Below are positions 9,644-12,937 of a stretch of DNA of 33,747 nucleotides, piece by piece. The stretch is taken from the NCBI GenBank assembly GCA_016938195.1, contig JAFGVC010000088.1, positions 1 to 33,747 of the forward strand. Reading direction: 5' to 3'. The DNA comes from Tissierellales bacterium. Its GTDB lineage: Bacteria > Bacillota > Clostridia > Tissierellales > Dethiosulfatibacteraceae. How positions within the stretch are numbered: the first letter of the stretch is position 1; the number at the start of each line of letters is the position of its first letter. Below the pieces are notes generated by a model. It was not told where the DNA came from and made no database searches. It saw only the letters and a program-made list of their open reading frames with translations. A program made the translations under genes and the position numbers.

Positions 9644-9653
9644 TTTTTCTCCT

Positions 9654-9690
9654 AAAAAAAACTGTTGCATTTATCATACCATGCAACAGT
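9654..9690 (-). terminator. Intrinsic terminator of the MinD-ferredoxin/NifX operon
   Basis: ACTGTTGCAT and ATGCAACAGT form a perfect 10-bp stem with a 10-base loop (9690-9661), followed on the minus strand by seven Us (9660-9654). The next gene's AGGAG begins at 9653, immediately after the U-tract. A TATGAT in the loop could act as a -10 element for the downstream gene, but no well-spaced -35 was seen. Confidence 0.85.
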
Positions 9691-9739
9691 CAATTATTAA
9701 AGTAAAAACCTACCTATTTTAGTATTCTTCACATTCGGT

Positions 9740-10078
9740 CTAGTGCTCGTGGTGATGGCAAATGCTGCCGGTCGATTTGAGATTACCTTTTAAATATTCC
9801 TGAACATTTTCCATGGCATCTCCTGTAGCACCCACAACAACCTCTACGTTTCTTTCATTAAACAAATTTACTGCTGCTCCTCCCATGCCCCCAGAAATAA
9901 TCGTGTTGACACCTAAATCGGCTAGGAATTTAGGGAGAAGTCCCGGAACATGCTCCGGACTTTGAACAAATTCTTTGTTATGGATTGTACCATTTTCCTC
10001 GTCAAACAGATAAAACCCGTCACAATGTCCGAAATGCTGAGAAACCTTACCGTCAATGCTTGCTACTGCTATTTTCAT
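9740..10078 (-). CDS. NifX/NifB-type metal-cluster-binding protein (dinitrogenase FeMo-cofactor family)
   Basis: This 112-residue protein has the compact NifX/NafY/ORP-like fold: MKIAVASIDGKVSQHFGHCDGFYLFD, then a Gly-rich INTIISGGMGGAAVNLF block. Relatives carry or insert Mo-Fe or Mo-Cu clusters; here only cluster or metal handling can be inferred. The C-terminus is HHHEH plus a Cys (ICHHHEH), a likely metal ligand set. The start is ATG 10078 behind GGAGG with five-base spacing; it overlaps the preceding ATPase gene by 26 bases. It is the last gene of the four-gene operon. No nitrogenase genes are present, so a nitrogen-fixation role is not supported. Confidence 0.85.
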   Translation of the reverse strand: MKIAVASIDGKVSQHFGHCDGFYLFDEENGTIHNKEFVQSPEHVPGLLPKFLADLGVNTIISGGMGGAAVNLFNERNVEVVVGATGDAMENVQEYLKGNLKSTGSICHHHEH

Positions 10079-10964
10079 GAATACCTCCATCAATTTTCAT
10101 TATTTTTTTAACTTTTGTTAATATTTCTTTGATTTGCTCTGCTGCTGGTGAATCTTCATAATCCACTACAATTTTTCCTTCATTTAATGCTTCCAACACC
10201 TTATTATCATAGGGTATTTTCCCTAAAAAAGCAATGTTTTCATCTAAGCAATATTCTTCAATCCGCTTAGTCATTTCAACATTGATGTCATACTTATTAA
10301 CACACATGCCGCATTGAATGCCAAAAACTCTTGCTGTCTGAACAATTCTTTTCATGTCATGGATTCCCGACAAGGTAGGTTCAGCTACAATTAATACATA
10401 ATTCATCCCCGTCAGAGAGGCAATGACAGGACAACCGATACCCGGTGACCCATCAATGATAGCGAATTCTTCATCTCTTTTATTTGAGTAAAGCTTTTTT
10501 CGAACCTCCGTAACCAGTTTGCCCGAAGCACCGTTTCCCACCTCGAGAGATGCATGTGAAAAAACCTCTTGGTTATATAATTCAACAACATTGTGCCCGG
10601 ATATATTATCTTCTAAATGAATCGCTTTTTTTCCGTTTTCATCGAAAACAGGACAAAAGGCTTCGCATACGCCGCAACCTTCACAATACATAGGATTCAA
10701 TATACCGTTTTCAAAAGCATTGAAGCGGCATAATTCTTCACATTTTCCACAATCGATACAAATATCATAATTTTTAACAGCTTTTTTTAACCCGAAGAAA
10801 TCTGTACTTTCCAGTATTTCTCCTCCATTAAAAACAAGATTTAGATTAGGTGCATCTACATCACAATCTGCAAACATCTTGTTCTGAGTCAGCTTGATAA
10901 ATGATGCCGCAACCGTTGTTTTTCCTGTTCCGCCTTTACCGCTTAATATTAGCAGCTGTTTCAT
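10053..10964 (-). CDS. MinD-superfamily P-loop ATPase with inserted 2[4Fe-4S] ferredoxin domain (copy 1)
   Basis: The 303-residue protein begins MKQLLILSGKGGTGKTT, a deviant Walker A typical of the MinD/Mrp group. A ferredoxin insert follows with CIDCGKCEELCRF and CEGCGVCEAFCPV (about residues 65-100), then IDGSPGIGCPVIASL for the Walker B/switch region. Such proteins occur in pairs in anaerobes, including the Desulfovibrio orange-protein locus, and probably assemble or load metal clusters. The start is ATG 10964, nine bases after GGAGG; an in-frame ATG at 10970 sits too close to that site. It overlaps both neighbours, which argues for coupled translation and a complex. Confidence 0.88.
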   Translation of the reverse strand: MKQLLILSGKGGTGKTTVAASFIKLTQNKMFADCDVDAPNLNLVFNGGEILESTDFFGLKKAVKNYDICIDCGKCEELCRFNAFENGILNPMYCEGCGVCEAFCPVFDENGKKAIHLEDNISGHNVVELYNQEVFSHASLEVGNGASGKLVTEVRKKLYSNKRDEEFAIIDGSPGIGCPVIASLTGMNYVLIVAEPTLSGIHDMKRIVQTARVFGIQCGMCVNKYDINVEMTKRIEEYCLDENIAFLGKIPYDNKVLEALNEGKIVVDYEDSPAAEQIKEILTKVKKIMKIDGGIHENSSSKH

Positions 10965-11796
10965 GGGCATGCACCTCCATGATTTTGTCCAATAACAATT
11001 CAAATTGTCTTTTGTATTTATCGTTGTAAGAAGAGGCTAACGCTCCAATTGAATTCAACTCAGCAATTTTTCCATCAAAATCAAATACTCCCAAAACAGG
11101 TATATGATTCTCCTCGCAAAATCGATGAGCAATTTCCTGTCCCGGAATATATTTATTAATCACAGCTCCATAAGGAATATCGAACAATTTGACTAATTCA
11201 AATACGATTGAGATGTTTTGAACGCCAAATATTGTCGGTTCTATGACCAAAACACAAAAATCGCTACCTTTGATACTCTCCATCACGACACAAGAGCTAC
11301 CCGGAGGACAATCCACAGTTACACTTTCTTCGCGATTGATGCCATCCAGTAATTTAGAAATAATGGGAACTCCTGTAGCCTCACCCGTATTCAGAATTCC
11401 TGTTCTGACTTCATGTGTCCCTGCCATACCATACTCAATATTTCCAATTTCCCTTTCGGTTTCTTTAATGGCTCCCTCTGGGCATAATAGAGAACAACCC
11501 CCGCAGGAGTGGCAAAGCTCCGGGAAAAGTTTAACTTTATCTTTAATATAGGCTAACGCATTAAACTCACAAAATTCAACACATTTTCTACATCCAGTAC
11601 ACAGATCATGGTCGATTTCAGGAATTAAAACATTAACCGGTTCTTCCTTAAATATTTTTCCTTTTAAAAAAATGTTTCCATTCGGTTCTTCTATATCACA
11701 ATCAATAAACAATGCGTCTTTTTGTACATAAGATAAATTTGTTGCAACAAAGGTCTTACCTGTACCTCCCTTGCCGCTCAGAACACCAATTCGCAT
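10936..11796 (-). CDS. MinD-superfamily P-loop ATPase with inserted 2[4Fe-4S] ferredoxin domain (copy 2)
   Basis: The 286-residue protein is a diverged paralogue of its neighbour. It begins MRIGVLSGKGGTGKTFVATN and has FIDCDIEEPNG, a ferredoxin insert with CTGCRKCVEFCEF and CHSCGGCSLLCPEG (about residues 65-105), and VDCPPGSSCVV as the Walker B region. The ATG at 11796 shares its A with the TAA stop of the preceding NifX-like gene, and the next ATPase overlaps its 3' end by 29 bases. The pair most likely works as a heterodimer that couples ATP hydrolysis to cluster or electron transfer. That role is inferred from family and arrangement. Confidence 0.88.
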   Translation of the reverse strand: MRIGVLSGKGGTGKTFVATNLSYVQKDALFIDCDIEEPNGNIFLKGKIFKEEPVNVLIPEIDHDLCTGCRKCVEFCEFNALAYIKDKVKLFPELCHSCGGCSLLCPEGAIKETEREIGNIEYGMAGTHEVRTGILNTGEATGVPIISKLLDGINREESVTVDCPPGSSCVVMESIKGSDFCVLVIEPTIFGVQNISIVFELVKLFDIPYGAVINKYIPGQEIAHRFCEENHIPVLGVFDFDGKIAELNSIGALASSYNDKYKRQFELLLDKIMEVHAHETAANIKR

Positions 11797-12164
11797 TATC
11801 TTGCTCCATGATCATGGAATCCACCATGTTTTTTTGCTTCTGATGTCAATTCTCCTGCATTAAACCGGTCTAAAATAACTCTGATTGACCCCGGAACAGC
11901 CCCTATGATATTTACATTTGCAGCTTCCAAAACATCAAGTGCATTTTTTCCGCACTGGTAAGTAATCACCGCATCTGCACCTATATCAACAACCTTTTGA
12001 GCCGCAACGATCCCTGCTCCTCCAGCCGCAGACACTGCAGGATTTTCAAAAATCTCATATTCTAAAGTTTCGCTATCTGCCAGCAAAAAAAAATTTGACC
12101 TTCCAAAAACATTGTTAATTTCTGCTTCAATACTTTTTTCATTTACAGGAAATGCTATTTTCAC
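11796..12164 (-). CDS. NifX/NifB-type metal-cluster-binding protein, operon lead gene
   Basis: This 122-residue protein of the dinitrogenase cofactor family reads VKIAFPVNEKSIEAEINNVF, with a Gly/Ala-rich SAAGGAGIVAAQKVVDIGADAVIT block and a His-rich tail (HGGFHDHGAR). The start is GTG 12164, six bases after GGAGGA. The longer reading from 12221 is impossible because that codon lies in the promoter. It leads the operon NifX-like, ATPase, ATPase, NifX-like. Both NifX-like proteins end in His-rich tails, suggesting bound metal. It resembles ORP-type proteins as much as NifX; the cluster type is unknown. Confidence 0.85.
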   Translation of the reverse strand: MKIAFPVNEKSIEAEINNVFGRSNFFLLADSETLEYEIFENPAVSAAGGAGIVAAQKVVDIGADAVITYQCGKNALDVLEAANVNIIGAVPGSIRVILDRFNAGELTSEAKKHGGFHDHGAR

Positions 12165-12202
12165 TTGTACTCCTCCAATTTTGTGGTATATGCCCATAAA
12201 AA

Positions 12203-12231
12203 ATAATACCCTATTTGACAATAATTGTCAA
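12203..12231 (-). promoter_or_regulatory. Consensus promoter with overlapping palindromic operator
   Basis: On the minus strand TTGACA (12231-12226) and TATTAT (12208-12203) are 17 bases apart, giving a start near 12196 and a leader of about 32 bases. TTGACAATTATTGTCAA (12231-12215) is a perfect 7-3-7 inverted repeat covering the whole -35, an arrangement typical of a repressor site. The regulator is unknown; the form is not that of LytTR sites, which are usually direct repeats. Confidence 0.75.
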
Positions 12232-12256: not shown

Positions 12257-12937
12257 TTATTTTATTTTGCCATAAACCTTATCTAAATATCTTCTCCTGA
12301 CGGGTATTTCTCCATCGTAATCAGAGATTTTACACTTATATGCTGTTAAAGATATAATCTTTGTCAGATTAATAACGTGACGACTACTACATTTTGCAAA
12401 ATAATCACTATCAAGGCTCTTCACGAGTCTGTTCATATTTTCTCTTAAAAAATACTCTTTATTCTTCGTGTAAATCTTTATCCCGCTAAATTGTTTTTCA
12501 AATAACAGGATGTCTCTATATGGAATAATTTTCATTTTTTCGTCATGCTTGAACATGAATAATTTTAGGTTTTTTTTAATTTTTTCAAACGACGTGTTCA
12601 ATATTTCATTAATCCGTTCTTGAGTAAAAGGACGATATAAAACAGTATCGTATAAATCCTCTTCTTCTTTTTTGATATCAGTCGATAGATTGCCAATTAA
12701 AATGATAATGCTTTCAGGTGAAACATTCTTAACTTTTTTTGCTATTTCGATTGCTTCCGGAAAATGATGAAGAAAAACAAAATCCGGTGTGATGTTTTTT
12801 AATATCTCCTCGATATTTTCCCCGATTTCAAATTCCTCAATGCTATAATTGATTGAATGGAGACTAAAATACTGCTCAACCGATTCTCTGAGTCTTGAAT
12901 TTTGATGATCCTTATAAATCAAAACTTCATATTTCAT
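12257..12937 (-). CDS. LytTR-type DNA-binding regulator with degenerate receiver domain
   Basis: The 226 residues comprise a receiver-like N-terminus (about 1-110) and a LytTR DNA-binding domain (about 130-226, with FEKQFSGIKIYTKNKEYFLREN and SSRHVINLTKIISL). In an AgrA-like receiver the strand-3 phospho-acceptor is Asp in FLDI; here the position reads FVFLHHF (His 57/58). The strand-5 Lys-Pro is Arg-Pro (102-103). The protein is therefore unlikely to be activated by ordinary Asp phosphorylation, and no sensor kinase lies beside it. The ATG at 12937 follows AAAGGAGATG. It lies upstream of, and in the same direction as, the ferredoxin-ATPase operon, but that operon has its own promoter. Confidence 0.85.
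   Translation of the reverse strand: MKYEVLIYKDHQNSRLRESVEQYFSLHSINYSIEEFEIGENIEEILKNITPDFVFLHHFPEAIEIAKKVKNVSPESIIILIGNLSTDIKKEEEDLYDTVLYRPFTQERINEILNTSFEKIKKNLKLFMFKHDEKMKIIPYRDILLFEKQFSGIKIYTKNKEYFLRENMNRLVKSLDSDYFAKCSSRHVINLTKIISLTAYKCKISDYDGEIPVRRRYLDKVYGKIK

Follow-up and report, generated by a model that had tools for sequence, protein, structure and literature searches.

Judged by its sequence features, the four-gene set described here is an orp operon, a gene cluster of a known kind that is common in anaerobes. It lies in the window, by which we mean the whole stretch of 33,747 nucleotides from a Tissierellales bacterium that was analysed, and it encodes two NifX-type proteins, NX1 and NX2, that flank two ferredoxin-bearing ATPases, ATP1 and ATP2. 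We assign it to the orp type because NX1 matches the orange protein (ORP), NX2 corresponds to a part of MrpORP, and the genes have the features described for Orp3, Orp4 and Orp8 of Desulfovibrio vulgaris. The operon is not a new system, and the one point of which we found no published description is an invariant cysteine in switch II of both ATPases. The gene content, conservation and homology of the cassette, like this cysteine, are observed directly.

Layout and control region of the operon

All four genes are read from the reverse strand. NX1 (11796–12164, 122 aa) starts with a GTG at 12164 and stops at 11796; ATP1 (10936–11796) runs from an ATG at 11796 to a stop at 10936, ATP2 (10053–10964) from an ATG at 10964 to a stop at 10053, and NX2 (9740–10078, 112 aa) from an ATG at 10078 to a stop at 9740. 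NX1 and NX2 are PF02579 proteins, of NifX/ORP type and NifX type respectively, and both ATPases are P-loop proteins of the MinD/Mrp fold, with the P-loop SGKGGTGKT in ATP1. The initial annotation held that all four genes overlap and that they share one promoter and one terminator. The overlaps amount to 1, 29 and 26 nt for NX1/ATP1, ATP1/ATP2 and ATP2/NX2, and GGAGG-type ribosome sites precede NX1, ATP2 and NX2. The two signals are borne out as predictions, both on the reverse strand: a sigma-70-type promoter, TTGACA-17-TATTAT, at 12203–12231 (11 of 12 matches), and an intrinsic-terminator-like hairpin (9691–9660) followed by a T tract at the 3′ end of the operon (9652–9691). On folding, this hairpin has an 11-bp stem, a 10-nt loop and a U tract, with –15.1 kcal/mol and a z of –4.6; a mechanical terminator scan, whose limit on loop length is below 10 nt, reported nothing there. 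Just upstream of the operon, the same strand carries a gene for a LytTR-domain regulator (12257–12937) with no recognised receiver domain, and a weaker hairpin and the promoter stand between this gene and the operon.

The –35 box is overlapped by a perfect 17-nt palindrome, TTGACAATTATTGTCAA (12215–12231), of Fur-like 7-1-7 layout, which is a possible operator. Its 15-nt core occurs a single time in the genome, while a Fur-like degenerate form of it has four genome sites versus one for a reversed-pattern control. One degenerate site stands just upstream of an apparent ferritin gene on contig C72 (L135). Of 86 operons, that of the window among them, just 3 are preceded by similar boxes (mononucleotide shuffles predict 0.65), and for this reason a conserved Fur-type operator was rejected. 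Since the palindrome is not conserved in relatives, it may matter in the window genome only, where its sequence hints weakly at control of the operon by Fur.

The NifX-type proteins and the orange-protein complex

Both flanking proteins match PF02579 in Pfam (NX2 at 1e–19, NX1 at 1.9e–16), and both have the His-rich tails that the initial annotation had pointed out, NX1 ending in HGGFHDHGAR and NX2 in CHHHEH. Alignments of NX1 and of NX2 show that these tails are family traits and not peculiar to the window genome. The likeness to the Desulfovibrio orange-protein locus, also proposed at the outset, is upheld by several matches. The NX1 profile matches the D. gigas orange protein (2wfb) over the whole domain at 1e–15, a likeness of sequence profile to a protein that carries [S2MoS2CuS2MoS2]. 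NX2 aligns to positions 266–365, the last 100, of the MrpORP model NF041136 (1.7e–30); alone it reaches 106.6 bits, under the equivalog cut-off of 450 bits, and by this alignment it is the C-terminal (Di-Nase) domain of MrpORP. In three relatives a fused MrpORP occupies the position of NX2 in the operon and passes the same model with 474, 483 and 451 bits. With MrpORP, NX2 further shares a Cys/His end and the motif HFGHC, which is near-invariant across the NX2 alignment and is the counterpart of CXHFGHCE, suggested in the D. vulgaris study as the site of the MrpORP [3Fe-4S] cluster (PMC6345978). Unlike in MrpORP, the Di-Nase domain of NX2 stands alone, and the Mrp part is encoded separately, on contig C164 (L043:1411–2235), by a gene whose product has an MrpORP-type N-terminal region (305 bits over positions 1–241 of NF041136, again below 450). 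This split is not unique to the window genome, because stand-alone NX2 is common in relatives too. The Mrp gene on C164 lies directly downstream of an apparent 2-hydroxyacyl-CoA dehydratase-type gene (no Pfam match).

In D. vulgaris the ORP complex is made up of Orp3 (DVU2103), Orp4 (DVU2104), Orp5, Orp8 (DVU2108) and Orp9 (DVU2109), the last being MrpORP. Orp3 and Orp4 have two [4Fe-4S] motifs each and Orp8 is the ORP; Orp3, Orp4 and Orp8 co-purify, and their complex takes up Fe-S clusters from MrpORP in vitro (PMC6345978). The window operon resembles this system in its paired proteins with two [4Fe-4S] motifs (by their described features), its ORP-type Di-Nase protein, the Di-Nase domain of MrpORP, the clustering of the genes and its occurrence in an anaerobe. 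It differs in arrangement, since the D. vulgaris genes form two divergent sigma-54 operons whereas those of the window form one operon with a sigma-70-like promoter, and in content, since it lacks the Mrp ATPase part and the small [2Fe-2S] protein Orp5 (the ORFs of the four-gene operon include no additional small gene). A DUF5320–DUF134 pair lies directly upstream of NX1 in many relatives; in the window genome it is found off the operon, on contig C30 (L048).

Other PF02579 genes were seen in the course of the searches. An NX2-like domain and DUF134 are joined in one ORF at L030:9996, L076 and L077, as are NX1 and DUF134 at L036 and L061, and such joined ORFs suggest that the DUF134 protein and the NifX-type proteins act together. 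The window genome has a third PF02579 protein (L003, G000:C59:598–879), with a small two-cluster ferredoxin-like ORF after its gene; it is not linked to the operon. Viral contigs searched with NX1 yielded no relative of it.

Two further readings of the NifX-type proteins rest on their fold. The best match of the NX1 profile is MTH1175 (1eo1, 7.5e–30), and both 1eo1 and 1rdu are stronger matches than 2wfb. MTH1175 served as the model template for IssA, and the IPR003731/PF02579 fold is common to IssA and the NX proteins (PMC5524996), which would fit NX1 and NX2 as IssA-type iron-sulfur stores whose thioferrate the ATPases load or mobilise. IssA, however, stores thioferrate with a long cationic tail of Gly, Arg and aromatic residues (70/179 residues; PMC5524996), whereas NX1 and NX2, of 122 and 112 residues, have short His-rich tails; because they lack a long cationic tail we regard storage of this type as very improbable. 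The family name and fold of PF02579 also recall nitrogenase, and the operon might be taken for a remnant or accessory of FeMo-co assembly. However, the whole window genome (2.5 Mb, 97% complete) has no match to PF00148, the family of NifD/K/E/N, nitrogenase homologues are present in only 4 of 30 tested relatives carrying the ATPase pair, and no nitrogenase genes are found among the recurrent neighbours of the cassette. A nitrogenase link was accordingly rejected for the window genome, and the FeMo-co reading is almost certainly wrong. The absence of nitrogenase, which had been part of the first description of the operon, thus holds genome-wide, and homologues of the cassette do not reside mainly in nif clusters.

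The ferredoxin-bearing ATPases and their invariant switch II cysteine

ATP1 and ATP2 both match CbiA/MinD and Fer4 in Pfam, and each carries two CxxCxxCxxxC ferredoxin motifs. They are paralogues with 29% identity (E 2e–37), as the initial annotation had recognised from the P-loops and the two-cluster ferredoxin inserts. The eight ferredoxin cysteines of each protein, together with Cys169 of ATP1 and Cys178 of ATP2, are invariant in 30 of 30 rows of either alignment. The homologues fall into two score classes, of about 395–525 and 240–350 bits, and across both classes the switch II cysteine stands at Walker B Asp +7 (D-x-x-P-G-x-x-C) in 96/96 ATP1 and 94/94 ATP2 sequences; of the Mrp partners, each of the 46 with the motif has Asp instead. 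NifH has its cluster ligand Cys132 at this spacing too (D-V-L-G-D-V-V-C). ATP1 Cys169 is aligned by hhalign to this NifH ligand, whereas the pairing of ATP2 Cys178 is by residue count only, because hhalign opens a gap in ATP2 there. When the ATP1 and ATP2 alignments were inspected by eye, no conserved Cys was found as an equivalent of the second NifH ligand, Cys97.

AlphaFold models of the single chains have a mean pLDDT of 80 for ATP1 and 78 for ATP2, and they give no cluster geometry because the ferredoxin insert of ATP1 (pLDDT <50 at 71–100) and the switch II loop of ATP2 (174–178) are of low confidence. The first structural match of both is ApbC, an ATPase that transfers Fe-S clusters (ATP1: Z 23.1, rmsd 2.9, 217 residues; ATP2: Z 20.3, rmsd 3.4, 221 residues), trailed by about 1–4 Z units by MinD (Z 19–22) and NifH/BchL (Z 19–21), where matches less than 1 Z apart count as ties. 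With MinD and Mrp/ApbC the two ATPases share the deviant Walker A P-loop fold (Z 19–23); unlike these they have ferredoxin inserts, a switch II Cys where Mrp has Asp, and little sequence past the last helix for a MinD tail. With NifH/BchL they share the fold and the Cys at Asp +7, and they differ in the two inserted ferredoxin motifs, the heteromeric pair, the lack of any conserved Cys97 counterpart seen and the lack of a nitrogenase-like partner.

Such likeness to NifH admits a reading of ATP1/ATP2 as an ATP-gated electron donor, in which hydrolysis would lower the potential of the electrons of the ferredoxin inserts and pass them to an NX-held cluster or to an undiscovered client, resulting in reductive activation and not in cluster transfer. 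The ligand spacing of NifH in every ATP1 and ATP2, the hhalign pairing of Cys169 and the rank of NifH and BchL among the best structural matches agree with it. However, inspection of the alignments gave no conserved Cys97 counterpart, hhalign gaps ATP2 around Cys178, and the cassette shows no link to a client enzyme, so that we consider a donor of this type unlikely.

MinD is also among the closest folds, and a role in cell division was proposed for the complex of D. vulgaris (PMC6345978). ATP1 and ATP2 would then be MinD-like spatial regulators of septum positioning, with the metal proteins as sensors tying division to the redox or metal state. In four Erysipelotrichia MAG loci (L008, L014, L018 and L028, at about 8–11 kb) ftsA/ftsZ-like genes, identified from sequence, are indeed found directly downstream of the cassette, but a MinC, MinE or FtsZ gene neither adjoins the window operon nor recurs beyond this one clade. 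Most ATP1 and ATP2 homologues end at or near the last predicted helix (0–1 residues beyond it in ATP1, a median of about 5 in ATP2), so that a separate MinD-type membrane helix would have little space, and a MinD role would not call for the eight ferredoxin cysteines that are invariant in each ATPase. Both the short C-termini and the absence of adjoining Min genes weaken the division reading, which is in our opinion distinctly improbable.

Distribution of the cassette and its proposed role

An ATP1 scan of genome contigs found 39 loci, and the ATPase pair or part of it is present in 31 of 41 genomes (40 relatives and the window genome); in a phylum-wide sample ATP1 was found in 143 of 299 genomes. 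We mapped 94 loci, the window included, in which both ATPases were readable. ATP1 and ATP2 are adjacent in 94/94 of them, a figure that is partly built in because the mapping required both genes at the locus. NX1 is immediately upstream of ATP1 in at least 83 of the 94 loci, NX2 is visible in at least 59 and all four genes in at least 53; Mrp or MrpORP is visible in at least 47, DUF134 in at least 55 and DUF5320 in at least 33, these counts of flanking genes being lower bounds because in many loci the sequence stops about 1.5 kb away from ATP1. Gene order is unchanged in the lower score class, where Mrp often precedes NX1. Among the recurrent neighbours checked in Pfam are NifU_N scaffolds, metallo-beta-lactamase-fold proteins, DUF5320 and the DUF364/DUF4213 'putative heavy-metal chelation' proteins, and IscU/NifU_N-type scaffold genes are located near the cassette at 8 loci. 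This neighbourhood survey, which the initial annotation had called for, finds the four genes kept together in relatives. The system proposed there is real, but it is far more widespread, and less of a novelty, than was implied. No published work on the cassette in Bacillota was found.

We favour a role of the encoded proteins as an ATP-driven carrier or maturation complex for Fe-S or metal-sulfide clusters, which the homologies make probable while leaving real room for doubt. ATP1 and ATP2, as counterparts of Orp3 and Orp4, would form a heterodimeric MinD/Mrp-fold ATPase with four ferredoxin-type [4Fe-4S] clusters. Binding and hydrolysis of ATP would alter this dimer, and electrons, a cluster or both would move between the inserts and a site where the two subunits meet, near which one Cys from each ATPase may lie. 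An Mrp-type carrier, here the product of the separate gene on C164, would load the clusters of ATP1/ATP2. That the proteins form a complex and receive clusters from MrpORP is carried over from the Desulfovibrio work; the heterodimer and its interface site, like the cargo and the direction of transfer, are our inference. Homology to ORP and MrpORP supports the idea of a compact metal-cluster assembly or carrier machine with which the analysis began, and its cargo is still fairly called unknown. The location of the Mrp partner outside the operon in the window genome counts against the carrier role, and this role differs from that of an electron donor mainly in the transferred item, clusters or electrons.

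A bolder proposal, tentative and rather unlikely, is a heterodimeric NifH-like energy-coupling device. Cys169 and Cys178 would bind an extra cluster at the interface, and ATP hydrolysis would drive electrons from the four ferredoxin clusters through it, so that a metal-sulfide cluster on NX1/NX2 would be built or reduced.

ATP1 is carried by about half of the genomes sampled in the phylum, yet the cassette is without a settled function, and the published biochemistry that we found on it comes from two Desulfovibrio species. The window operon is a compact version of the cassette, whose four proteins could be co-expressed, and the invariant switch II cysteine offers a single-residue test of the coupling between ATP and clusters in ATP1/ATP2. 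If the NifH-like energy-coupling proposal were true, the cassette would be a general reductive cluster-building machine of anaerobes outside nitrogen fixation.
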